A stretch of 64,000 bases of DNA from Desulfonatronospira thiodismutans ASO3-1 (GTDB taxonomy: Bacteria; Desulfobacterota; Desulfovibrionia; Desulfovibrionales; Desulfonatronovibrionaceae), in contig NZ_ACJN02000003.1 in the NCBI RefSeq assembly GCF_000174435.1, positions 512,263 to 576,262 on the forward strand. Direction: 5' to 3'. The translations under genes and the position numbers were made by a program. Position 1 is the stretch's first letter. Every line of letters starts with the position of its first letter. Under the pieces are notes generated by a model. That model was not told the DNA's origin. It saw only the letters and a program-made list of their open reading frames with translations, and ran no database searches. This document shows positions 36,627 through 51,462 of the stretch, piece after piece.

Positions 36627-36726
36627 CCCCGTGAAATAACTCCTTGGAGTTCCCGAAGGTATTTCACTGGGGACCTCTGACCTCTGATCTCTGACGTCTG
36701 TAACTGCAAAAATGACTTTTTGCAGT
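36627..36726. promoter_or_regulatory. Two hairpins in the leader of the REC-PAS kinase gene
   Basis: The first stem pairs CCCCGTGAAATA (from 36627) with TATTTCACTGGGG (to 36672). The second pairs ACTGCAAAAA (36703-36712) with TTTTTGCAGT (36717-36726) around TGAC. The second ends 11-23 bases before the possible starts at 36738/36750. Neither is followed by a T-run on the plus strand, so leader structures or dispersed palindromes are likelier than terminators. No gene in 36508-36737. Confidence 0.4.
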
Positions 36727-36749
36727 CACATCTAATCATGGGGTATTAT

Positions 36750-39086
36750 ATGCAAAAAGTACTAATAGTAGAAGACTCCGAATCTTTTGCCCTCTTTTTG
36801 AACAAGGCATTGATTAAAAACGGATATGATGTTTCAGCCCAGGTGAAAACCGGGGAAGCCGCTCTGGAGCACATCAGGGAAAATGACCCTGATGTCATCC
36901 TCATGGACATCAATCTGGACGGTGAACTGGACGGAATTGAAGCCGCCGAACTTATCCGCCGGGAAAAAAACATTCCTGTTATCTACGTGACTTCCCAGTT
37001 CAACGAAACAGTCATGCACCGGGCCGCCCAGACCCTGCCCTACGGGTACCTTTGCAAGCCCTTTAATGTCCATCACCTTCTGGGGGTGCTGGACATAGCT
37101 CTGCGCAAGAGACAGGTGGAAATAAAGCTGGAGAAATCCAGGCTGCAGGCGGAACAGGAACTGCGCCTGGCCAAGGAGCAATGGGAAGATACCTTTGATG
37201 CTGTTCCCGACCTCATAGCCGTCATCGACCAGGAACTCAAGATCGTGCGGGCCAACAAGGCCCTGTCCGACAGGCTGAACATGGACAGGGAGGAAATAAC
37301 AGGAAGCCACTGTTACCGTGTAATAGACGGAACAGACAGTCCCCCGGAGTCATGCCCCTTTTTCGATTCAGAAAAAACGGGCAGATCTCACGGGGAGGCA
37401 TATAAGGCAAGTCTCGGGGGATACTTTGACATAAGCTGTACCTCGGTGAAGGGACTGCAGGGAGGTAAGGCCAGGGTCAATGTGCTCAGGGATATCACCC
37501 GGCGTAAAGAATTCGAGGAAAATCTCAGGCGTAGCGAAGAACTATACCGCCGTCTGGCCGAGGACATGCCCAATCTTCTGTGCACTTTTCTGCCCGACAG
37601 CACCCTGACCTATGTCAATCAGGCCTATTGCGATTTTTTTCAGAAGAACAGGCATGAACTTGTGGGACAGAAATGGCTGGATTTTCTGCCCCGGGAGCAA
37701 AGACACGCAGTCAGAGAACATCTTGCCACGATTAAACCTGAAAACCCCTTTGTGTCCTATGAACATGCCGTGCACAGGCCCGATGGTTCAGTGAGCTGGC
37801 AAAAATGGCACGATCGGGGAATTTTTGAAAACCAGGAACTGTTATACATCCAGTCCATCGGGGAGGATATAACCGACAGAAAGCTGGCCAGTGAAAGACT
37901 AAAGGAAAACGAAAAAATCCTTAAGTCAGTGCTGGAATCAATCCATATAGCCATGATCATTATGGATTTAAACACAGGCAAGGTCTTAAGGACCAATGAG
38001 GTAGCCCGGGAATACTTTTATGCAGACGATTCAGCAGAAGCGGATTTTGAAAAAAAGATACTGCCTGTAATTTTGAAGGGAAAAAACAGCCTGTCCTCTT
38101 TCGCATCCAGCCTGCCCGTATTCAACAGGGAGGTAAAGATAAACGATGTATCCGGCAGGCTTGTCCCTTTCCTGTTCTATGCCTTTCAGAGCGAATTTCA
38201 GGGAGTGGAGAGTGCAGTGCTGATTTTTTACGATATCTCCCAGCGCAAGAACCTGGAGATGCAGCTGGCCCACTCCCAGAAACTGGAGGCGGTGGGGGAA
38301 CTGGCTGCAGGCATAGCCCATGAAATAAATACCCCCAGTCAATACGTGGGCGATAACACACGTTTTTTACAGGAGGCCTTTACTGATCTGCAGCAGCTTC
38401 TGGACCTTTATCTGCGCTTGGAAAAAGAAGTGCATGCAGCCGGCAATGATGAACTGCTGCAGAAGATACGGCAAGCCAGAGATGAGATGGACCTGGATTT
38501 TATCCTTTCCGAGATACCCCGGGCCATTGAGCAGTCCCTGCAGGGCCTGGACAGGGTAAGTACCATTGTCCAGGCCATGAAGAGATTTTCCCATCCAGGG
38601 GGTGAAGAAGAAAGGGTGCTTTTTGATCTCAACGAGGCTTTGACCAATATCATCACCATTTCCCGCAACGAGTGGAAATATACTTCCGAGGTCAAAACCG
38701 ATTTTGCAGAGGATCTTCCCCAGGTGGCGGTTTATCCCAATGACCTGAACCAGGCCTTTTTGAACCTCATTGTCAACGCGGCTCAGGCCATCCAGGAAAA
38801 AGAACAAAAGAGCGGGGGAAAGGGGGTTATTTTTATTTCCACCCGGGCCGTTAACGGTTACGCTGAAGTCAGCATCCAGGATACAGGCAAGGGCATCCCT
38901 GAGTATTACCAGGACAGAATATTCGACCAGTTTTTCACCACCAAGCCCGTGGGCAAGGGTACGGGACAGGGGCTGGCCATTACCTATTCCATCATTGTGG
39001 ACAGGCACGGAGGCCAGATCAACCTTGACTCCAGGGAAGGTGAAGGCACGACATTTACTGTCCGCCTGCCGTTAACAGATGCTTAA
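36750..39086 (+). CDS. Receiver-PAS sensor kinase of the NtrB-like type
   Basis: 778 residues if begun at ATG 36750 (another ATG at 36738). An N-terminal CheY-like receiver (VLIVEDSESFALFLNKAL, acceptor in VILMDINLDGELDG, Lys in LCKPFNVHHL) is followed by three PAS domains (about 135-490). The first PAS has a Cys pair region (CYRVIDGTDSPPESCP). The HisKA is of the shorter type (GIAHEINTPSQYVGDNTRFL, His near 524), with a helical insert before HATPase_c (NLIVNAAQAI, DTGKGIPEYYQDRIFDQFF, GKGTGQGLAI). No C-terminal receiver. The gene stands alone, with hairpin-rich gaps on both sides. Confidence 0.9.
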   Translation: MQKVLIVEDSESFALFLNKALIKNGYDVSAQVKTGEAALEHIRENDPDVILMDINLDGELDGIEAAELIRREKNIPVIYVTSQFNETVMHRAAQTLPYGYLCKPFNVHHLLGVLDIALRKRQVEIKLEKSRLQAEQELRLAKEQWEDTFDAVPDLIAVIDQELKIVRANKALSDRLNMDREEITGSHCYRVIDGTDSPPESCPFFDSEKTGRSHGEAYKASLGGYFDISCTSVKGLQGGKARVNVLRDITRRKEFEENLRRSEELYRRLAEDMPNLLCTFLPDSTLTYVNQAYCDFFQKNRHELVGQKWLDFLPREQRHAVREHLATIKPENPFVSYEHAVHRPDGSVSWQKWHDRGIFENQELLYIQSIGEDITDRKLASERLKENEKILKSVLESIHIAMIIMDLNTGKVLRTNEVAREYFYADDSAEADFEKKILPVILKGKNSLSSFASSLPVFNREVKINDVSGRLVPFLFYAFQSEFQGVESAVLIFYDISQRKNLEMQLAHSQKLEAVGELAAGIAHEINTPSQYVGDNTRFLQEAFTDLQQLLDLYLRLEKEVHAAGNDELLQKIRQARDEMDLDFILSEIPRAIEQSLQGLDRVSTIVQAMKRFSHPGGEEERVLFDLNEALTNIITISRNEWKYTSEVKTDFAEDLPQVAVYPNDLNQAFLNLIVNAAQAIQEKEQKSGGKGVIFISTRAVNGYAEVSIQDTGKGIPEYYQDRIFDQFFTTKPVGKGTGQGLAITYSIIVDRHGGQINLDSREGEGTTFTVRLPLTDA

Positions 39087-39557: not shown

Positions 39558-40739
39558 TCAACCCGATTCTTTAGCCTTTTTTTTCTCCCTTAGCTTCTGC
39601 GGAGGTACCAGGACAGAAAAAGGCTGTTTTACTCCATAGGTCTCATCAAGATTTCGCAGCTTGTCCACCTGGTTAAGGCTTAGCTCGCTGCCACTGCGCA
39701 GCAGAAGCATCCCGCTCAGAGAATAGATTTCTTCCGTGACCACCATGTAGGGCACAAGCTCATTTATGCGCACCTGCTTGAGCTCGTACTCGTCTTCCAT
39801 CTGCAGAACTTCTATAAAATTTCTAATGACAGCGGGGTCATAACGCCCCTTGCGGTCCAGCATGCGCAGCAGGGTATTTTTGCGGGAATATCCGCGGTTC
39901 ATGAGCAGGTCGTAATCCAGGACAACCTTGAGAATCCTGGCCCCCAGGGGAATATCTTTTCCCCTGATGCCGTCCTCAGGGAAGCCCTGCCCGTTGTAAT
40001 ACTTCTCCTGCTGGGAAATCATTCTGGACATTTCTTCCAGCCTGGGGATTCTGGATATTATATCCGCTGCTATCATTGGGTGCTGGGAAAATGTCTGCTT
40101 TTCTTCCGGGGTCAGTTTTTCTCCGTTTTTGATTTTCAAGCGGATATTCTCAGGCAGTGCCAGCCCTCCTATCTGGGAAAGCAGGGCTCCGGTTTCATAG
40201 AACCAGACGTCTGTTTCTCCCATGTGTACAGCCAGATCCCGGACGAATCTCTTGATCCTTGCAGCCCTGGCCATGGCATCCTCGTTGACCATGCTCAGTA
40301 CATCAGTCAGAGCGCCCACTACCCCGCTGACTGTGCTTTCCATGATTTCTTTTTCGGAAACTATGAGCCTGTACTGGGCAATAGCGTCGTCCAGAGTCCT
40401 TGTGAGCAGATGGGGAGGAACAGGCTTGGTCAGGAAGCGGAATACGCTGCCCTCGTTTATGGCCTCTATTGCGGCATCCAGATCTTCATGGCCGGTGAGC
40501 ATTATGCGTACGCTCTCGGGAAAAAGTTCCCTGACCCGGCCCAGGAACTGAATCCCGTCCATTCCGGGCATCTTCAGGTCAGCCACCACTACCGCATAAG
40601 GGCCTTTCTCGTTTATGGCCTTCAGACCTTCCATGGCTCCTGTGGCGGTATCAACGCTGTAGTTCCTGCGCAGGGATCTCTTGAATCCCTCCAGGATATT
40701 CACGTCGTCATCTACGAACAGAACCTTGTAATCTTTCAC
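39558..40739 (-). CDS. Response regulator with degenerate HD-GYP-like output
   Basis: 393 residues from a GTG at 40739 (CTGGAG six bases upstream). The longer open frame to 40856 begins with TTG in repeat DNA and is rejected. The receiver is intact (VLFVDDDVNILEGF, acceptor in VVVADLKMPGMDG, Lys in FLTKPVPP). The C-terminal half aligns with HD-GYP proteins, but the HD pair is lost (GALLSQIGGLALP) and GYP is GFP in EKYYNGQGFPEDG. It is therefore probably not a c-di-GMP hydrolase. It may bind a ligand or partner. It lies at the minus-strand edge of the signalling island, with repeats directly upstream. Confidence 0.87.
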   Translation of the reverse strand: MKDYKVLFVDDDVNILEGFKRSLRRNYSVDTATGAMEGLKAINEKGPYAVVVADLKMPGMDGIQFLGRVRELFPESVRIMLTGHEDLDAAIEAINEGSVFRFLTKPVPPHLLTRTLDDAIAQYRLIVSEKEIMESTVSGVVGALTDVLSMVNEDAMARAARIKRFVRDLAVHMGETDVWFYETGALLSQIGGLALPENIRLKIKNGEKLTPEEKQTFSQHPMIAADIISRIPRLEEMSRMISQQEKYYNGQGFPEDGIRGKDIPLGARILKVVLDYDLLMNRGYSRKNTLLRMLDRKGRYDPAVIRNFIEVLQMEDEYELKQVRINELVPYMVVTEEIYSLSGMLLLRSGSELSLNQVDKLRNLDETYGVKQPFSVLVPPQKLREKKKAKESG

Positions 40740-40845
40740 TGAGGACTCCAGGGACCGGCCGTATACCGTCCCGGGTTGTTTTTGATATGTTTTATGCCTG
40801 CGATGTCCATACCGGACAACTTTCTGTAGTGGGGAAGGTAGGGAG

Positions 40846-41320
40846 CTGATTGTCAAACCACCCCCGGCCCCTCCTTAACCAAGGAGGGGAGCAGATCGAG
40901 GCATGGCAGCACTCTGTCGCATGCATCTGTATAAATACTCCGTCTGGATCGTGATTAAACTTCCACCACCCAAGCAAGTCCAGGCCACGGTACAGCTCCC
41001 CTCCTTAGCCAAGGAGGGGTCGGGGGTGGTTGCATGAAATCCCTTCCTTATAAAAATTCCAGAAGCCCGCCCCCCAAGCAAGTCCAGGCCACGGTACAGC
41101 TCCCCTCCTTAGCCAAGGAGGGGTCGGGGGTGGTTGCATGAAATCCCTTCCTTATAAACATTCCAGAAGCCCAACACCCAAGCAAGTCCAGGCCACGGTA
41201 CAGCTCCCCTCCTTAGCCAAGGAGGGGTCGGGGGTGGTTGCATGAACTCCCTTCCCTATAAACATTCCAGAAGCCTACCACCCAAATAGTCCAAACCACG
41301 GTTTAGCTCCCCTCAAAACA
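40846..41320. repeat. Tandem repeat array upstream of the REC-HD gene
   Basis: Four CCCCTCCTTA(A/G)CCAAGGAGG cores lie near 40867, 40999, 41102 and 41208. The last three are in ~104-bp units (CCCTTCCTTATAAAAATTCC to TCGGGGGTGGTTGCATGAAA), and a fifth unit is truncated after TAGCTCCCCTC near 41315. They lie in the 660-bp gap between the REC-HD and PRPP synthetase genes, both on the minus strand. No gene; the array separates the REC-HD gene from any promoter further upstream. Confidence 0.85.
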
Positions 41321-42364: not shown

Positions 42365-43010
42365 AAGAATTAAGGAAGGGAGCTGATTATCGAACCACCC
42401 CCGACCCCTCCTTAACCAAGGAGGGGAGCAGATCGAGGCATGGCGACACTCTGTCGCAGGCATCTGTATAAATACTCCGTCTGAATCGTGATCAAACTTC
42501 CACCACCCAAGCAAGTCCAAGCCGCGATACAGCTCCCCTCCTTAGCCAAGGAGGGGTCGGGGGTGGTTGTATGAGATCCCTTCCTTATAAACATTTCAGA
42601 AGCCCGCCACCCAAGCAAGTCCAAACCACGGTACAGCTCCCCTCCTTAGCCAAGGAGGGGTCGGGGGTGGTTGTTATATGAAATCCCTTCCTTATAAAAA
42701 TTCCAGAAGCCCACCACCCAAGCAAGTCCAGGCCGCGGTACAGCTCCCCTCCTTAGCCAAGGAGGGGTCGGGGGTGGTTGTATGAGATCCCTTCCTTATA
42801 AACATTTCAGAAGCCCACCACCCAAGCAAGTCCAAGCCACGAGCCACGGTACAGCTCCCCTCCCTCAGGAAGAAAGTATGGGTGTATGGGTGTATCCATG
42901 TGTGGGTGTAAAGATATTTTTACTCCCATACACCCATACACCCATACGCCCATACGCCCATACGCCCATACTTCTTAACCCCGGGGTGGTTGTATGAACT
43001 CCCTTCCTGA
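42365..43010. repeat. Tandem repeat array plus CCCATAC element upstream of the hydrogenase cassette
   Basis: Cores lie near 42411, 42535, 42640 and 42746 in ~104-107 bp units. One quasi-palindromic CCCATAC element follows at about 42870-42980, and the tail GGTGGTTGTATGAACTCCCT ends near 43008. It fills most of the 845-bp divergent gap between the PRPP synthetase gene and the hydrogenase small subunit. The remaining ~140 bp before the hydrogenase start is AT-rich and unique. Confidence 0.85.
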
Positions 43011-43153: not shown

Positions 43154-44089
43154 ATGAAGACGGCTTTCTGGATGCAGGCAGGCGGCTGCGGTGGCGACAG
43201 CATGTCGTTTCTGAGCCAGAGCTTTGCCTGCACATCCAATCTGTTCCAGGCCCTGGACATCGACCTCCTCTGGCACCCGTCATTTTCCTGCATAGCCATG
43301 CAGGATCAGAAAAGACTCCTGGAAGACCTGGCAGCAGGTAAAATACCTCTGGATATATTCATCCTGGAAGGATCCGTCATATGCGGCCCCTCTGGGACGG
43401 GCCTTTTCGACACACACATGGGCCGGCCCAGAAAAGACCTGGTACAGCAACTAACCATGCAGGCCGATACAGTCATTGCCGCCGGGACCTGCGCCTCATT
43501 CGGCGGTTTCGGGGCTGACGGGGAGGCCGGATCCACCGGCCTGCAGTTCCACAAAACCCGGCCTGGTGGACTCCTGGGTCCCGATTTTCGGTCCGGCTCA
43601 GGACAACCGGTGATAAACCTGGCCGGATGTCCCTGCCACCACGACGTAATGGCCGGGGCACTGGCAGCCGCAGCCCGCGGTACCGCCATGGACCTGGATG
43701 AATACCACCGACCCCGGGAATGGTACGGAACCATGATCCACCAGGGATGCACCCGCAACGAATATCATGAATACCGGGTGGAGGAATCCGATTTCGGCGA
43801 ACTGGGATGTCTCTTCTTTCACATGGGTTGTGCCGGTCCCCTGGTTCCCGGCCCCTGCAACAAGCTTCTCTGGAACCAGCAGTCATCCAAGCCAAGGGCC
43901 GGGGTGCCCTGTTTTGGATGCACCGACCCTGAATTCCCCGGGAAAAACCCATTTTTTTACACCCAGAACATAGAAGGCATCCCTTTGTCTTTGCCCAACG
44001 GCGTCAACAGGGCCCACTACATGGTCTACAAAAGTATGGCTGCCGCAGCCGCTCCTCTTCGTCTTAAAAAAAGAACCGCCAGGGTGTAG
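43154..44089 (+). CDS. [NiFe]-hydrogenase small subunit, cytoplasmic, probably sensory
   Basis: 311 residues with TAGGAGG nine bases before ATG. No Tat signal is present (the protein starts MKTAFWMQAGGCGGD), so the enzyme stays in the cytoplasm, as in HupU/HoxB-type hydrogen sensors. The proximal-cluster motif, normally CxxC, reads CGGD: the second Cys is Asp 15. The other proximal ligands are present in AAGTCASFGG and NLAGCPCHHD. Distal and medial cluster Cys are present (HQGC, ELGCLFFHMGC, GPCNKLLW, VPCFGC). No FrhG or cytochrome partner is encoded. The gene leads a cassette with the large subunit, a maturation protease, a hybrid kinase and a diguanylate cyclase, pointing to signalling. Confidence 0.9.
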   Translation: MKTAFWMQAGGCGGDSMSFLSQSFACTSNLFQALDIDLLWHPSFSCIAMQDQKRLLEDLAAGKIPLDIFILEGSVICGPSGTGLFDTHMGRPRKDLVQQLTMQADTVIAAGTCASFGGFGADGEAGSTGLQFHKTRPGGLLGPDFRSGSGQPVINLAGCPCHHDVMAGALAAAARGTAMDLDEYHRPREWYGTMIHQGCTRNEYHEYRVEESDFGELGCLFFHMGCAGPLVPGPCNKLLWNQQSSKPRAGVPCFGCTDPEFPGKNPFFYTQNIEGIPLSLPNGVNRAHYMVYKSMAAAAAPLRLKKRTARV

Positions 44090-44123
44090 CCGGAGGCCGC
44101 CATGTTCCAGCAAAAGGACTTTT

Positions 44124-45680
44124 ATGAGTTCCAAAAGTGTCCGCACAAGCCTGAACATCCCCCTGAACCGGGTTGAAGGCGACCTGGAGATCCAGGCCGC
44201 AATAGAGGACGGCTGCATCACGGAGGCAAGGTCTTCGGGGACCATGTACCGCGGGTTTGAAAACATGATGACCGGCCGGGGCACCCTGGACGGACTGGTG
44301 ATAACCCCGCGCATCTGCGGAATCTGCAGCCTGAGCCACCTCACCGCTGCAGTAGAGGCCCTGGAAGACATCAGCGGCACAACCCCGCCGGACAACGCCC
44401 GCAGACTTCGCAATCTGGCCCTGATGGTGGAAATGCTCCAGAGCGACATCCGCCAGAGCATCCTTATGTTCATGGTGGATTTCACCAATGAAGGGGCTTA
44501 TGCATCCCACCCCCTGAGCAGCCTGCTAATGGAACGCTATGCCCCTCTGTCCGGCACCTCCGCCATCCAGTCCATCCAGGAAACCAGGCGCCTTCTGGAG
44601 GTGGTGGCCATCATAGGCGGACAGTGGCCGCATACCTCCTTCATGGTCCCCGGAGGGGTCACCTCCAGCCTGGGTACCCCGGAACTTCTGCGCTGCTGCA
44701 TGATCATTGAGAATTTTCAGAGCTGGTACGAAAAAAATGTCCTGGGCTGTTCCATAAGCCGCTGGCACCAGGTGGATAGTGCCCAGGCCATGCTTGACTG
44801 GCTGGAGGAGATAGAATCCCATCGACAGGGCGATCTGGGCCTTTTCCTGCGCCTGGCCTATGACGCCGGACTGGATACAATGGGGCAGGGACCCGACGGA
44901 TTTCTCTGCTACGGCGGGCTGCCCCTGCCGGAACACACAGAGGTGAAGGGACAGCAAGGCCAGTTCATCCCGGCCGGATTCGCCCGGCACGGCAGCATCC
45001 AGGCCTTTGACCCAGCAAACATCGCCGAAGACATTTCCCAGTGCCCCTACAGCCAGAAGCATACCAGCGTCCATCCCTGGGACAGCAGCACCAACCCGGA
45101 CCCTTACGCACCCCGGGAAAACAGCTATTCCTGGATCAAGGCCCCCAGATACAACGGCCACGCAGTTGAAACCGGGCCTCTGGCTGAAATGCTTGTGCGC
45201 CGTGATCCCTTGTTCACCGACCTTATTCAAAGGCAGGGCTCCAGCGTCCTGTCCCGTCAGCTGGCCAGGCTTACCCGGCCGGCCCGGCTGATTCCGGCCA
45301 TGCTGGCCTGGCTGCGGGAACTGAGCAGCAATCCCCAGGGCAAGTTCTATCACCGGGTTAAAAAAATCCCCGATGGACAGGGAGCCGGTCTTATCCAGGC
45401 TGTACGCGGCGGGCTCGGACACTGGGTGCAGATAGTGGACCAGAAGATCGAGCATTACCAGATCATTACTCCATCCACCTGGAACGGCTCCCCCAGAGAC
45501 GGGGATAATAATCCCGGGGCCTGGGAAAAGGCCCTGGAAGGGACTTTTATAAAAAATCCGGAAAACCCGGTGGAGGCCGGCCATGTGGTGCGCTCCTTTG
45601 ATCCCTGCCTGGTATGTGCTGTGCACAGCCTGCACAGGGGCCGGAAAAAAGGCGTCCTGGTCCTGGGAGGAGGCTTTTGA
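44124..45680 (+). CDS. [NiFe]-hydrogenase large subunit
   Basis: 518 residues with both nickel-binding motifs: RICGICSLSH (Cys 65 and 68) and DPCLVCAVH (Cys 495 and 498, His 501). The active site is thus complete for hydrogen binding and splitting. A 17-residue tail follows His 501 (SLHRGRKKGVLVLGGGF), so proteolytic maturation is expected. Classical regulatory large subunits such as HoxC lack this tail. A start at ATG 44124 is supported by AAAGGAC. The stop TGA overlaps the TTG start of the protease gene (TTGA). In this context a hydrogen-sensing role is likely, but low-rate catalysis cannot be excluded. Confidence 0.92.
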   Translation: MSSKSVRTSLNIPLNRVEGDLEIQAAIEDGCITEARSSGTMYRGFENMMTGRGTLDGLVITPRICGICSLSHLTAAVEALEDISGTTPPDNARRLRNLALMVEMLQSDIRQSILMFMVDFTNEGAYASHPLSSLLMERYAPLSGTSAIQSIQETRRLLEVVAIIGGQWPHTSFMVPGGVTSSLGTPELLRCCMIIENFQSWYEKNVLGCSISRWHQVDSAQAMLDWLEEIESHRQGDLGLFLRLAYDAGLDTMGQGPDGFLCYGGLPLPEHTEVKGQQGQFIPAGFARHGSIQAFDPANIAEDISQCPYSQKHTSVHPWDSSTNPDPYAPRENSYSWIKAPRYNGHAVETGPLAEMLVRRDPLFTDLIQRQGSSVLSRQLARLTRPARLIPAMLAWLRELSSNPQGKFYHRVKKIPDGQGAGLIQAVRGGLGHWVQIVDQKIEHYQIITPSTWNGSPRDGDNNPGAWEKALEGTFIKNPENPVEAGHVVRSFDPCLVCAVHSLHRGRKKGVLVLGGGF

Positions 45681-46129
45681 AAAAGAGTATTGTCTGCATT
45701 GGAAGCATCTGGATAACAGAAGATATGGCCGGACTGCAGGTATATAAACGCCTGCAGGACACTGAGCATCCCCGCACTGTAGAAGTTTTTTTCGGCGGCC
45801 TTTCCGGCCTGAACCTTCTGCCCTTTCTGGAACAGGGCGGCAGGGTGGTTTTTGTGGACAACGTTAAAGGCTTTGCCGCACCCGGCCGGGTGGTGGTCCT
45901 GGATCAAAGCCAGGTCATTGCCTCCCGGGAGCTGCGGCACTATGGTCACGGGGCCGGCCTGCCCTTTTTGCTTACTGTTCTGCCTGAGGTGTGTACCGGA
46001 ACCATGCCCCGGGAAATCTTTCTGGTGGGAATCGAGGAAAAATTTACGTCAGAATCTGTTCAGGAGGCGGCCTGCCTGAGCCTGCAGATAGCCGAGAATG
46101 GACGTTGCTGCCATGGTAAAGAGTTATAA
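45677..46129 (+). CDS. Hydrogenase maturation endopeptidase (HyaD/HybD-like)
   Basis: 150 residues from TTG 45677, which overlaps the large-subunit stop; GGGAGGAGG lies just upstream. The N-terminus (KKSIVCIGSIWITEDMAGLQ) matches the family's GxGNxLxxD(E/D)GxG pattern with the acidic metal ligand kept but Asn replaced by Ser. HxxG-type GHGAGLPF (about residue 95) matches the later conserved His. The family removes the C-terminal peptide of the large subunit after nickel insertion. The tail on the adjacent large subunit is its expected substrate. The kinase gene begins inside its 3' end (32-bp overlap). Confidence 0.87.
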   Translation: MKKSIVCIGSIWITEDMAGLQVYKRLQDTEHPRTVEVFFGGLSGLNLLPFLEQGGRVVFVDNVKGFAAPGRVVVLDQSQVIASRELRHYGHGAGLPFLLTVLPEVCTGTMPREIFLVGIEEKFTSESVQEAACLSLQIAENGRCCHGKEL

Positions 46130-48701
46130 GGACCTGGCCCAGGAAAACGAACTGCTTCGCCGGGAACTGAAAGTTGCCCGGGAAGCAGCTGAAATAACCT
46201 CGAAAATGGTGGTGGAGCAGTTTGAGCAGACCGAGCAGATGCTGCGCCGCTACCGGGAGGCCAATGCCCAGCGCCGGGCCGTTCTTGATGCCGCCTCCAG
46301 AATGTCCATCATTGCCACTGATCTTTCAGGCAATATCACCCTTTTCAATCCCGGAGCGGAAAACCTGCTGGGATATGCATCCAGTGATGTTGCCGGCCGG
46401 ATGAATATACTTTCTTTGCACACCACTGAAGACCTGGAGCGGCATAGAGCCTCATTAAAGGCTACTCTGACCTCAAGTACCGGCATGGAGATATTTGAAC
46501 ATTACACCAGCCTGCAGCAGCATGATACCGGGGAATGGCAGTACATCTGCAGTGACGGCACACTTCTGCCCGTAAGCCTTTCCATCACCTCCATTTATAA
46601 TGCCGAGGGCATGCGGGAAGGTTACCTGTTTACAGCCATGGATCTTACCCTGCGCAAATCCCTGGAACAAAAGCTGGTGGCGGCCAAGGAGGAGGCCGAA
46701 CAGGCCAGTGCCTGCAGAGGTGAATTTCTGGCCCGCATGAGCCATGAGATACGTACCCCCATGAATGCCATAACCGGAATGGCCTACCTGCTGGGAAGCA
46801 CCGAACTGAATCACGTGCAGCAGGACTATGTGCGAAAAATCATTGATTCCGCCGATACCCTGCTGGCAATAATAAATGATATTCTGGATTTCTCAAAGAT
46901 AGACGCCGGCAGGATGGAACTTGAAGAGCTTCCCTTTTCCCTGCAGCAGATTATCGGCAGAATGTTGAATGTGGTCGGGGCCAGGGCGGAGGAAAAAGGA
47001 CTGAAAATCCAAACTCATATCCATCCCGGTGTGCCGGACAGTCTGGTGGGTGATGCTCTAAGGCTTGGACAGATCATCTTGAACCTTTGCTCCAATGCAG
47101 TCAAATTTACTTCCCAGGGAGAGGTAGCCCTTACCGTGACACTACAGAAGGAGCGCCAACACCAGGTCGACTTGCTTTTCTGTGTGAGCGACACCGGCAC
47201 AGGGATTACCCCTGAAAAGGCTGAGCAGCTTTTCCAGGCCTTCCAGCAGGCTGATGGCTCCATTACCCGCAAATACGGCGGATCAGGTCTGGGACTGGCC
47301 ATCTGCAAAGAACTGACCCAGATGATGGGCGGAGAAATCTGGGTGGAAAGCATCCCTGATCAGGGATCAAGCTTTTTCTTTACAGCCTGTTTCAGAAGAA
47401 ATGAACAGGCAGAGCCCGGACCAGACCAGGATTATCCGGACATGGAGGCAGTCAGGGGGACAAGGGTCCTGGTGGCCGAGGACAACACCATAAATCAGCA
47501 GATTATTCACGAATACCTGCGTGAAGCAGGCATAAATGCAACTATTGTGGACAATGGAAAAAAATGCCTGGAAAAACTTCAGCAAAGCCATTATGATCTG
47601 GTACTCATGGACATCCAGATGCCTGAAATGGACGGGCTGGAGGCGGCCCGGAACATCCGCGCCGCAGAGATTACAGAACAGGGCTCACAGGACACAGACC
47701 GCAGGCCACAGAACCATTCCCCCAATCCCCCAACCCCTCAATCCCCAAATTCCTCAATCCCCCAATCCCCAAATCCCTCAATCCCTCAATCCCAGAATCC
47801 CTCAATCCCTCAATCCCAGAATTCCCAAATCCCCCAATCCCTCAATCCCGGCATCCCCATCATCGCCATGACCGCTCATGCTCTGGATACGGACCTGGAA
47901 AAAAGCCTGCAGGCCGGCATGAACGACCATATAACCAAACCTGTGCATCCTGACACCCTGTACCGTATCCTGCAGCGCTGGGCCCCTCAAGCCGCCCGGC
48001 AGGACAGTGCTGTTGGCTCTGCAGGCGGCAACAGCCGGTCTATTGACCTGCAAAAAAGCAGTGAGCATTTGCCCCGGATAAGGGAGATAGACATGGATGA
48101 AGCCATGCAGCGCATGAACTTCAGCCCTGAGCTGGTTATGGAGATGCTTCTGGAATTCAAAAATACCTACAGGTCGGTCCCTTCCCTGTTGCGGCAGTGG
48201 CAGGACCGGGGCAGATGGGAAGACATCCAGGAAAAAACCCATGCCATCAAGGGTGCCTCTTCATATATAGGAGCCGTAAAAGTGCACAGGGATGCCTCCC
48301 TTCTGGAAGAAACCCTGAAATCAGGACAACATAATAAGCAAAACATATCCATACTGCTGCAGAATTTTCTGCACAGCCTGGAGAACTGTCTCTCTTCCCT
48401 GGACAGCCTTGAATCCAGGTCACAGCCAGAGAGTATCTCCCCGTCTCCTCTCGGGGAAAGGGAACAAAGATACGCAGCTGAAATACTTGGAAAGCTTGCC
48501 CGGACCCTGGACCGTGGCGAACTTGCTGATGAAAACCGGATCAGGGAACTGGACGGGATGCTCAGGGGACAGGGGTTTGACGGGCTTTTGAACAAACTTC
48601 TTGAATTTATCAGCGAGTTTGACCATGATGCTGCAGCTGAAGTGGCCCTGAAAATTCAGCAAAGGATAAACGGCAACATCAGTGATACACATGGGACATG
48701 A
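46098..48701 (+). CDS. PAS hybrid histidine kinase with REC and Hpt, coupled to the hydrogenase
   Basis: 867 residues from ATG 46098 (ATG 46113 also possible). An N-terminal coiled coil (about 5-55) could bind the hydrogenase, as reported for HoxJ/HupT partners. PAS (about 56-185), HisKA (MSHEIRTPMNAITGM, His near 217) and HATPase_c (NLCSNAVKF, DTGTGI, GGSGLGL) follow. The receiver starts near 455 (LVAEDNTIN, acceptor in LVLMDIQMPEMDG), carries a ~50-residue Pro/Gln/Ser/Asn insert at about 535-585 and resumes at IPIIAMTAHA. The Hpt domain has HAIKGASSYIGA (His near 715). The chain supports a full His-Asp-His relay to the receiver-GGDEF protein encoded next. Confidence 0.93.
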   Translation: MDVAAMVKSYKDLAQENELLRRELKVAREAAEITSKMVVEQFEQTEQMLRRYREANAQRRAVLDAASRMSIIATDLSGNITLFNPGAENLLGYASSDVAGRMNILSLHTTEDLERHRASLKATLTSSTGMEIFEHYTSLQQHDTGEWQYICSDGTLLPVSLSITSIYNAEGMREGYLFTAMDLTLRKSLEQKLVAAKEEAEQASACRGEFLARMSHEIRTPMNAITGMAYLLGSTELNHVQQDYVRKIIDSADTLLAIINDILDFSKIDAGRMELEELPFSLQQIIGRMLNVVGARAEEKGLKIQTHIHPGVPDSLVGDALRLGQIILNLCSNAVKFTSQGEVALTVTLQKERQHQVDLLFCVSDTGTGITPEKAEQLFQAFQQADGSITRKYGGSGLGLAICKELTQMMGGEIWVESIPDQGSSFFFTACFRRNEQAEPGPDQDYPDMEAVRGTRVLVAEDNTINQQIIHEYLREAGINATIVDNGKKCLEKLQQSHYDLVLMDIQMPEMDGLEAARNIRAAEITEQGSQDTDRRPQNHSPNPPTPQSPNSSIPQSPNPSIPQSQNPSIPQSQNSQIPQSLNPGIPIIAMTAHALDTDLEKSLQAGMNDHITKPVHPDTLYRILQRWAPQAARQDSAVGSAGGNSRSIDLQKSSEHLPRIREIDMDEAMQRMNFSPELVMEMLLEFKNTYRSVPSLLRQWQDRGRWEDIQEKTHAIKGASSYIGAVKVHRDASLLEETLKSGQHNKQNISILLQNFLHSLENCLSSLDSLESRSQPESISPSPLGEREQRYAAEILGKLARTLDRGELADENRIRELDGMLRGQGFDGLLNKLLEFISEFDHDAAAEVALKIQQRINGNISDTHGT
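47715..47850. repeat. In-frame minisatellite inside the receiver domain of the hydrogenase-linked kinase
   Basis: About sixteen copies of an 8-bp unit (CCTCAATC, CCCCAATC, CCCAAATC, CCCAGAAT) run through the coding sequence. Three units make 24 bp, so the protein carries an 8-residue repeat (IPQSPNPS, IPQSQNPS, IPQSQNSQ, IPQSLNPG). The total stays in frame. The insert falls between helix 3 and strand 4 of the receiver fold. Confidence 0.85.
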
Positions 48702-49596
48702 ACCAGCCCGCATACTCATTGTTGATGATGAAAAAATAAACCTCAGGGTCCTGGCGGACCTGCTCAAGGACAAGTACACTATCATGCTGGCCAGAAGCGG
48801 AGAACAGGCTTTGAAGCTGGCCCATCAGGAACCCCGGCCCGACCTTATCCTCCTGGATATTGCCATGCCCGGGATGAGCGGCTTTGAAGTCATCAAAAAG
48901 CTCAAACATGATGATGCAACCAATCACATTCCGGTGATTTTCATAACCGCCCTTGACAGCAGGGAGCAGGAAGAGAAAGGGCTTAAGCTTGGAGCAGTGG
49001 ATTACATCACCAAGCCCATATCCCCTCCCATAGTAAAGATCCGGGTACGCAACTACCTGGATATGCAGCATAAATACAAGCTTCTGGAACAAAAGGCCAA
49101 CCTGGACGGGCTCACGGAGATACCCAATCGCCGCTGTTTTGAAGAGGTGCTGGCCAGGGAATGGCAGAGGGGCAAAAGAAACGCCAGTCCTCTTTCCGTT
49201 GCCATGCTGGATATAGATTGTTTCAAGCAGTACAATGACCACTACGGTCACCAGACTGGGGACATCGCCCTGCAGAGAGTCGCCCGCAGCATCATGGACA
49301 GTCTGAAACGCGCTTCAGACTATGCCGGAAGATACGGCGGGGAGGAGTTCGTCATCCTCATGCCCGAAACTCCCCTGGAGTCGTCGCTGATGGTGGCCGA
49401 AAGAATCCGCTCAGACATTGAAAGCCTTGCCATACCTCATGCCTTATCCAGTATAGCCCCGCATCTGACCGTAAGCATAGGAGTGGCCTCCACCCGGGAT
49501 TACGCCGAATCCGGCCCGGAAGAAATCATCAAACGCGCAGACCAGCATATGTACACGGCCAAACAGTCTGGCCGCAACCGCGTTTTTGGAGAATAA
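48691..49596 (+). CDS. Response regulator diguanylate cyclase (REC-GGDEF)
   Basis: 301 residues from ATG 48691 (in-frame GTG at 48682 also possible); either start overlaps the kinase stop at 48701. The receiver (about 5-122) has ILIVDDEKINLRVL, acceptor in LILLDIAMPGMSG and Lys in ITKPISPP. The GGDEF domain (about 135-300) has the active GGEEF motif and an RxxD inhibitory site (RASD) five residues before it. It is a WspR/PleD-like output: phosphorylation by the adjacent hydrogenase-linked kinase should raise c-di-GMP. Repeats begin within a few bases of its stop codon. Confidence 0.93.
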   Translation: MGHEPARILIVDDEKINLRVLADLLKDKYTIMLARSGEQALKLAHQEPRPDLILLDIAMPGMSGFEVIKKLKHDDATNHIPVIFITALDSREQEEKGLKLGAVDYITKPISPPIVKIRVRNYLDMQHKYKLLEQKANLDGLTEIPNRRCFEEVLAREWQRGKRNASPLSVAMLDIDCFKQYNDHYGHQTGDIALQRVARSIMDSLKRASDYAGRYGGEEFVILMPETPLESSLMVAERIRSDIESLAIPHALSSIAPHLTVSIGVASTRDYAESGPEEIIKRADQHMYTAKQSGRNRVFGE

Positions 49597-50267: not shown

Positions 50268-51462
50268 GGAAGGGAGCTTAATATCAAACCACCCCCGGCC
50301 CCTCCTTAACCAAGGAGGGGAGCAGATCGAGGCACGGCAACACTCTGTCGCAGGCATCTGTCAAATACTCCGTCTGGATCGGGGGTGGTTGTTATATGAA
50401 ATCCCTTCCTTATAAACATTCCAGAAACCCACCACCCAAGCAAGTCCAAGCCGCGATACAGCTCCCCTCCTTAGCCAAGGAGGGGTCGGGGGTGGTTGTA
50501 TGAAATCCCTTCCTTACAAGCATTCCAGAAGCCCACCCACCCAAATAGTCCAAGCCCACGGTACAGCTCCCCTCCTTAGCCAAGGAGGGGTCGGGGGTGG
50601 TTGTATGAAATCCCTTCCTTACAAGCATTCCAGAAGCCCACCCACCCAAATAGTCCAAGCCCACGGTACAGCTCCCCTCCTTAGCCAAGGAGGGGTCGGG
50701 GGTGGTTGTATGAGATCCCTTCCTTACAAGCATTCCAGAAGCCCACCCACCCAAATAGTCCAAGCCCACGGTACAGCTCCCCTCCTTAGCCAAGGAGGGG
50801 TCGGGGGTGGTTGTATGAAATCCCTTCCTTATAAACATTCCAGAAACCCACCACCCAAGCAAGTCCAGGCCACGGTACAGCTCCCCTCCTTAGCCAAGGA
50901 GGGGTCGGGGGTGGTTGTTATATGAAATCCCTTCCTTATAAAAATTCCAGAAGCCCACCAACCAAGCAAGTCCAAGCCGCGATACAGCTCCCCTCCTTAG
51001 CCAAGGAGGGGTCGGGGGTGGTTGTATGAACTCCCTTCCTTATAAACATTCCAGAAACCCACCACCCAAGCAAGTCCAAGCCGCGATACAGCTCCCCTCC
51101 TTAGCCAAGGAGGGGTCGGGGGTGGTTGTATGAGATCCCTTCCTTATAAACATTTCAGAAGCCCGCCACCCAAGCAAGTCCAGGCCGCGGTACAGCTCCC
51201 CTCCTTAGCCAAGGAGGGGTCGGGGGTGGTTGTATGAGATCCCTTCCTTATAAACATTTCAGAAGCCCGCCACCCAAGCAAGTCCAGGCCGCGGTACAGC
51301 TCCCCTCCTTAGCCAAGGAGGGGTCGGGGGTGGTTGTATGAACTCCCTTCCTTATAAACATTCCAGAAACCCACCACCCAAGCAAGTCCAAGCCGCGATA
51401 CAGCTCCCCTCCTTAGCCAAGGAGGGGTCGGGGGTGGTTGTATGAGATCCCTTCCTTTTTCT
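50268..51462. repeat. Tandem array of about ten ~104-bp repeats
   Basis: After one AGCAGATCGAGG-type unit (50268-50393), the word CCCTTCCTTA(T/C)A recurs near 50403, 50506, 50609, 50713, 50820, 50926, 51031, 51137, 51241 and 51345, ending at 51449. Spacings are 103-106 bp. Each unit holds the CCCCTCCTTAGCCAAGGAGG palindrome. Groups of adjacent units share variants (GCCCACCCACCCAAATAGTC in three successive units; AAGTCCAAGCCGCGATACAG or AAGTCCAGGCCGCGGTACAG in others), which shows recent local duplication. Open frames on both strands are products of the array. About 115 bp of unique AT-rich sequence follows before the methyltransferase. Confidence 0.9.

Follow-up and report, generated by a model that had tools for sequence, protein, structure and literature searches.

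A group 2c-type [NiFe] hydrogenase cassette of Desulfonatronospira thiodismutans as a putative hydrogen sensor linked to c-di-GMP synthesis

In anoxic sediments, as in syntrophy, hydrogen is a central currency; among bacterial [NiFe] hydrogen sensors, the only ones known to us to have been tested control hydrogenase genes by means of sigma54 activators. The locus described here raises the question of whether a hydrogenase encoded next to a histidine kinase and a diguanylate cyclase could convert hydrogen into a c-di-GMP signal. Through a sensor of this kind, the supply of hydrogen would bear on attachment, motility and aggregation, for instance in sulfate reducers living near hydrogen-producing or hydrogen-consuming partners. 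The locus lies in the window, that is, the whole stretch of 64,000 nucleotides that was analysed (contig 3, 512263-576262, of the 4.1 Mb genome of D. thiodismutans ASO3-1), and its features are collected in Table 1. We give a probability of roughly 0.7 to the reading that the cassette is a cytoplasmic hydrogen-sensing module of group 2c, predicted to control c-di-GMP synthesis via a kinase relay.

Table 1. Positions in the window of the cassette genes and of the domains of the kinase
Feature	Position	Strand	Basis
[NiFe] hydrogenase small subunit, group 2c type, without signal peptide	43154..44089	+	PF14720 + PF01058
[NiFe] hydrogenase large subunit	44124..45680	+	PF00374, E 8e-81
HycI/HyaD-type hydrogenase maturation protease	45677..46129	+	PF01750, E 3e-8
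Hybrid histidine kinase: N-terminal motif, PAS, HisKA, HATPase, REC, Hpt	46113..48701	+	Pfam, homologue starts
Kinase N-terminal helical motif, 43 residues, candidate hydrogenase-docking helix	46140..46268	+	alignment, profile, AlphaFold
Kinase PAS domain	46269..46643	+	Pfam, structure model
Kinase HisKA + HATPase_c; H-box ARMSHEIRTPMNA, N- and G-boxes intact	46716..47387	+	
Kinase REC domain, split by repeat-encoded insert	47466..48000, end approximate	+	
Kinase Hpt domain (THAIKG)	48144..48350	+	
REC-GGDEF diguanylate cyclase: receiver Asp, GGEEF active site, RASD inhibitory site	48682..49596	+	

The initial annotation had described five plus-strand genes that follow one another with a 34-bp gap or overlaps, and translations and Pfam matches agree with it, as all five open reading frames were found, adjoining or overlapping, with the proposed identities. 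The gap of 34 bp separates the two subunit genes. For the protease, the first start listed is 45614, but the TTG at 45677, which shares a TTGA with the stop of the large-subunit gene, is most likely the one used; similarly, the kinase most likely starts at the ATG at 46113 rather than with the ORF from 46098, because homologues start there. From this ATG, the kinase overlaps the protease by 17 bp, and the kinase and cyclase ORFs overlap by 20 bp. The lack of a Tat signal, also claimed at the outset, is borne out by the small-subunit ORF, which has no in-frame start 5' of 43154 and whose N-terminus (MKTAFWMQAGGCGG) leaves no space for one. The same holds for the lack of a cytochrome partner: no cytochrome, ferredoxin or diaphorase gene adjoins the cassette, the neighbours being a phosphoribosyltransferase gene, a REC-HD-GYP gene and, past repeat arrays, unrelated genes. 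Promoter and terminator scans gave no signal above chance level.

To place the hydrogenase, genome contigs were scanned with four small-subunit queries and the best 80 of 288 relatives were taken, the nearest named one among these being a Desulfonatronospira MAG (80% small-subunit identity); viral contigs scanned with the large subunit gave no match. Plasmid-borne references were of 2a type (Runella, Octadecabacter, Mesorhizobium, Mycobacterium, Sphingopyxis, Sulfobacillus, Thermus) and of 2b type (Cupriavidus necator pHG1 HoxBC, Azospirillum, Paraburkholderia, Bradyrhizobium, Fuscovulum). In a tree of the concatenated subunits, 2a (100/100), 2b (100/100) and a clade bearing the N-terminal motif described below (99/97), with the window cassette in it, are each supported, and a 93-row tree agrees, with the window hydrogenase inside a 26-row subclade (98). 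Methylococcaceae relatives (L075, L091) also fall within the motif-bearing clade. On these trees, unrooted and drawn from the midpoint, 2c is closer to 2a than to 2b. Membership of group 2b (HoxBC/HupUV) and of group 2a (Huc-like) was ruled out by tree and residues. The large subunit, which the initial annotation had supposed to belong to a sensory lineage, lies in a group-2 clade apart from the energy-conserving 2a and from 2b, and the c-di-GMP-linked group 2c that was named there corresponds to the text of HydDB (PMC5037454), where 2c is 'Diguanylate cyclase-linked (putative)', of undetermined role, and may sense hydrogen via c-di-GMP production. In addition, Flood et al. (PMC4853749) report that aquatic sulfate reducers and methylotrophs carry 2c hydrogenases, with cyclases and phosphodiesterases linked to them, and quote the L2 motif SFDxCLVCTVH. 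The window enzyme, likewise a cytosolic group-2 hydrogenase with a diguanylate cyclase link, clearly fits HydDB group 2c, a label assigned by matching descriptions rather than HydDB 2c sequences. Its L2, SFDPCLVCAVH, agrees with the quoted motif at 10/11 positions, ending in CAVH rather than CTVH, and T, A, S and C are all found at that position inside the supported clade.

At the level of residues, the [NiFe] ligands of L1 (PRICGICSLSH) and L2 are intact. The L1 His is replaced by Gln in most 2b enzymes, the gas-channel pair is Ile/Met here, Ile/Phe in most 2b and Ile/Leu in most 2a, and the SFDPCLVC of the window corresponds to S[FY]DSCLVC in 2a and to SFDPCMVC in most 2b. Moreover, the large subunit continues for 17 residues past the L2 His, whereas this tail is of 0 residues in 6/6 plasmid-borne 2b references. 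In the small subunit, the ligands of the medial and distal clusters are present, and residue 15, at a ligand position of the proximal cluster, is Asp (CGGD) in place of the Cys of 2b and the Asn of 2a. This Asp is a new observation and suggests a proximal cluster unlike that of HoxB, which is a [4Fe-4S] cluster. The best solved relative of both subunits, Huc (2a) of Mycobacterium smegmatis (PDB 7utd/7uus), likewise lacks this second proximal Cys and has a C-terminal tail, and it contains three [3Fe-4S] clusters (PMC10017518).

The five-gene order, expected to recur if the cassette is a functional unit, is kept in many other genomes. Specifically, with loci annotated by profiles built for this analysis, hydrogenase, kinase and REC-GGDEF genes follow in order in 23/23 subclade loci with enough sequence, the window cassette included, and a recognised protease gene is present in 21 of them; the intact order argues against a chance assembly. 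The hosts are Desulfonatronospira, Desulfohalobiaceae, Desulfopila, Desulfogranum, Desulfofustis, Desulforhopalus, Desulfamplus, Desulfocicer and Desulfobacula. Both the H-box of the kinase and the RxxD I-site of the cyclase are retained in 23/23, and every variant listed has the receiver, GGEEF and ATPase motifs. In detail the subclade varies: two loci have no PAS, one has the Hpt split off and those of Desulfamplus lack both protease gene and tail. The window REC-GGDEF protein shares with the PleD/WspR type the receiver Asp, the GGEEF and the RxxD inhibitory site, and differs in that its gene accompanies those of a hydrogenase and its hybrid kinase; having receiver Asp, GG[DE]EF and I-site, it is predicted to be an active diguanylate cyclase. 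In four loci (L062, L066, L073 and L116; three Desulfamplus and one other Desulfobacteraceae), the large subunit is HoxC-like and ends at the L2 His, and a recognised protease gene is found in 0/4. This hints that the neighbouring protease may process the tail, although faintly, because many tailed loci outside the window subclade are also without a recognised protease. In L066, L107 and L123, the small- and large-subunit genes lie 1.4 to 4 kb apart, suggesting insertions between them.

A possible link between hydrogenase and kinase is offered by a helical motif of about 40 residues (kinase ORF residues 15-57, ENELLRRELKVAREAAEITSKMVVEQFEQTEQMLRR...), which opens the protein after the hydrogenase in the window cassette and in 76/80 fetched loci, the remaining four (L056, L076, L109, L115) being cut or disrupted. 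What follows the motif is a kinase with or without PAS or, in L098 and L104, a PAS-PAS-GGDEF protein and, in L118, a class III cyclase; the motif profile had no match below E 1 in the other ORFs of the 80 loci. As these loci helped to build the profile, specificity was checked genome-wide. Among 395 Desulfobacterota genomes, 12 strong matches in 11 genomes all lie beside a group-2c-type hydrogenase, including that of an apparent exception (G065), which also carries a large subunit next to the motif gene; one partial match (E 0.009) is without hydrogenase. A further 13 genomes of other groups, a set in which the presence of matches is partly by construction and their absence elsewhere is not, hold 14 matches, one per such hydrogenase and none elsewhere, with two of each in one genome. 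Over 56 partners, mean pairwise identity is highest in the motif (0.64), ahead of linker (0.53), HisKA (0.47) and PAS (0.38). AlphaFold models the motif as a single long helix (construct residues 6-63, mean pLDDT 85.8) that runs into the PAS fold. The motif has no credible match among solved structures in the PDB and no counterpart in Pfam, and it precedes the first Pfam domain; likewise, no copy was found in plasmids or in 2a or HoxJ/HupT proteins, and the HoxJ/HupT N-terminus differs. It is a candidate hydrogenase-docking helix and likely the plug between hydrogen sensor and signal output. Since it also sits on PAS-GGDEF and class III cyclase proteins, the constant part is the motif and not the kinase.

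The simplest version is found in Actinomycetota, where a motif-PAS-PAS-GGDEF protein directly follows the large subunit and there is no kinase (L098, 3991-5520; L104, 12491-14071). The Schekmanbacteria protein (L118, 6325-7587) joins the motif straight to a class III adenylate/guanylate cyclase and matches neither kinase nor PAS. Because such direct fusions need no kinase, these cyclases of other phyla argue that the hydrogenase may act by contact on a dimeric output. A plasmid of Ideonella dechloratans (L037, 7044-12745) carries small-subunit, large-subunit and protease genes and then a PAS-GGDEF-EAL protein without the motif; its large subunit (44.5% identity) is on a long branch outside the motif-bearing clade.

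Across the clade, the first gene of an output type that runs in the same direction within 4.5 kb was counted as the output, so that some assignments are by neighbourhood. For 63 loci, the output is GGDEF in 29, HD-GYP in 20, a receiver only in 8, a class III cyclase in 4, and a PP2C and a sigma54 activator in 1 each; representative cases were confirmed by Pfam, and 53/63 outputs make or break a nucleotide second messenger. The tree requires at least 13 output changes, and at least 5 when GGDEF is set against all other outputs, which points to a stable input module with exchanged outputs. We incline slightly to the broader view that the docking helix, rather than the kinase, couples 2c hydrogenases to interchangeable outputs (c-di-GMP synthesis or breakdown, class III cyclic nucleotide synthesis, phosphatase, sigma54 activator). 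That is, it would form part of a plug-in hydrogen sensor, kinase-free in some phyla, through which hydrogen directly sets second-messenger levels across many phyla. A hydrogenase grouping with 2b (L166, genome G235) is accompanied by a REC-HD-GYP gene and by a hybrid kinase that has REC and Hpt but not the 2c motif; here, in a further and distinct case, a sensor-like hydrogenase is tied to c-di-GMP turnover.

How could the window cassette work? Gene order, its conservation, intact signalling motifs, clade and exclusive motif are read from the sequences themselves, and from them we infer docking, hydrogen as the signal, the phosphotransfer route and a response of either sign. The HycI-type protease would cut off the C-terminal tail of the large subunit, finishing maturation, and the mature small-large hydrogenase would dock on the N-terminal helix of the kinase and perhaps also on the PAS. 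Hydrogen binding or turnover at the [NiFe] site would change the hydrogenase in its redox state or its conformation, and the altered state, passed via helix and PAS, would modify kinase activity. Phosphate may then travel from the kinase His to the REC Asp, the Hpt His and, finally, the receiver Asp of REC-GGDEF, whose phosphorylation would set dimerisation and c-di-GMP synthesis. In the HoxJ system, hydrogen halts phosphorylation (PMC10073562), and as the HoxJ/HoxA kinase is off with hydrogen, the sign of the c-di-GMP response cannot be assumed here. HoxBC-HoxJ-HoxA and HupUV-HupT-HupR likewise combine a cytoplasmic group-2 hydrogenase with a PAS histidine kinase and presumed protein-protein signalling; the window set differs in its tail and protease, in the L1, proximal-cluster and gas-channel residues given above, in its REC-Hpt hybrid kinase with an unrelated N-terminus, and in having a GGDEF output rather than a sigma54 activator. 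The initial annotation had the activator replaced by a c-di-GMP synthase, which is apt as a description of the REC-GGDEF output but not as a simple descent from HoxBC-HoxA, 2c being nearer to 2a.

An alternative that we consider unlikely is that the hydrogenase is a Huc-like catalytic uptake enzyme with an unlinked acceptor, the kinase and cyclase being merely co-transcribed and the PAS reading another signal. Huc is indeed the nearest solved structure, maturation tail and protease are kept, unlike in the proven sensor HoxBC, and real catalysis with electron transfer is possible, because all Fe-S ligand positions but one Cys are intact; moreover, the kinase PAS could respond to a different signal. 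However, the accessory genes of 2a (HucM, NHL, NifU-like, TPR, DUF1641) are absent, there is no gene for an electron acceptor, signalling genes are linked, and the motif-bearing partner is kept clade-wide, whereas some members have lost the PAS or had it replaced. Somewhat less probable still is a hydrogenase that senses cell redox, or the balance of hydrogen, CO and oxygen, and passes electrons to its partner or withholds them. An Asp in place of the proximal Cys would alter cluster type or potential, and an unknown electron acceptor is discussed in work on the RH (PMC5665086), but the L1 and L2 ligands are those of an intact [NiFe] site and the PAS is devoid of an invariant Cys or His for metal or haem. 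It is highly improbable that the relay chiefly serves other receivers, with REC-GGDEF a side branch or insulated from the kinase: the Hpt is the least conserved domain (0.44) and sister lineages have different outputs, but in 23/23 subclade loci the REC-GGDEF gene adjoins that of the kinase, in most of them overlapping it or lying <50 bp away, and the identity of the REC-GGDEF receiver across the subclade is 0.75.

With respect to the favoured reading of the cassette as a hydrogen sensor, the role of 2c as a diguanylate cyclase-linked sensor is already published as a prediction, of which the window cassette is a well-supported further member; no experimental test of it was found in open-access papers. 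To our knowledge, judged from such papers, neither the exclusive motif nor the plug-in arrangement of outputs has been described before. A motif of 43 residues is a small and precise target that renders the long-standing 2c prediction directly testable, and it could help in constructing hydrogen-responsive sensors.

The host genome encodes HypD, for active-site assembly, and has 19 GGDEF matches (18 besides that of the cassette) and at least 6 PilZ matches over the Pfam cut-off. A REC-HD-GYP gene (39558-40856, minus strand), likely a c-di-GMP phosphodiesterase, and a REC-PAS-kinase gene (36720-39086, plus strand) lie 2-6 kb upstream of the cassette. The other [NiFe] hydrogenases of the host are two Mvh-like sets beside Hdr genes, neither near the cassette; in one of them, the large subunit (L049, 7709-9157, minus strand), beside MvhG/MvhD- and HdrA-like genes, has an in-frame TGA in L2 (AYDPU), probably for selenocysteine. 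As for the kinase, the best fold matches of its PAS are generic PAS, FixL, LOV and NifL. Its REC is interrupted between alpha3 and beta4 by a degenerate 8-bp repeat (CCAATCCC; 47714-47849, 17 units, 79% match) that encodes a Pro/Asn/Gln/Ser-rich loop, and at this site the kinase of the nearest relative carries another insert that is not made of repeats. Since a change of one unit shifts the frame, the array could be phase-variable. Finally, arrays of a 104-bp tandem repeat flank the cassette on both sides (40963-41314, 3.4 copies; 42500-42838, 3.2; 50379-51457, 10.3), and each unit includes a palindrome (CTCCCCTCCTTAGCCAAGGAGGGG) that occurs in 28 copies in the window.
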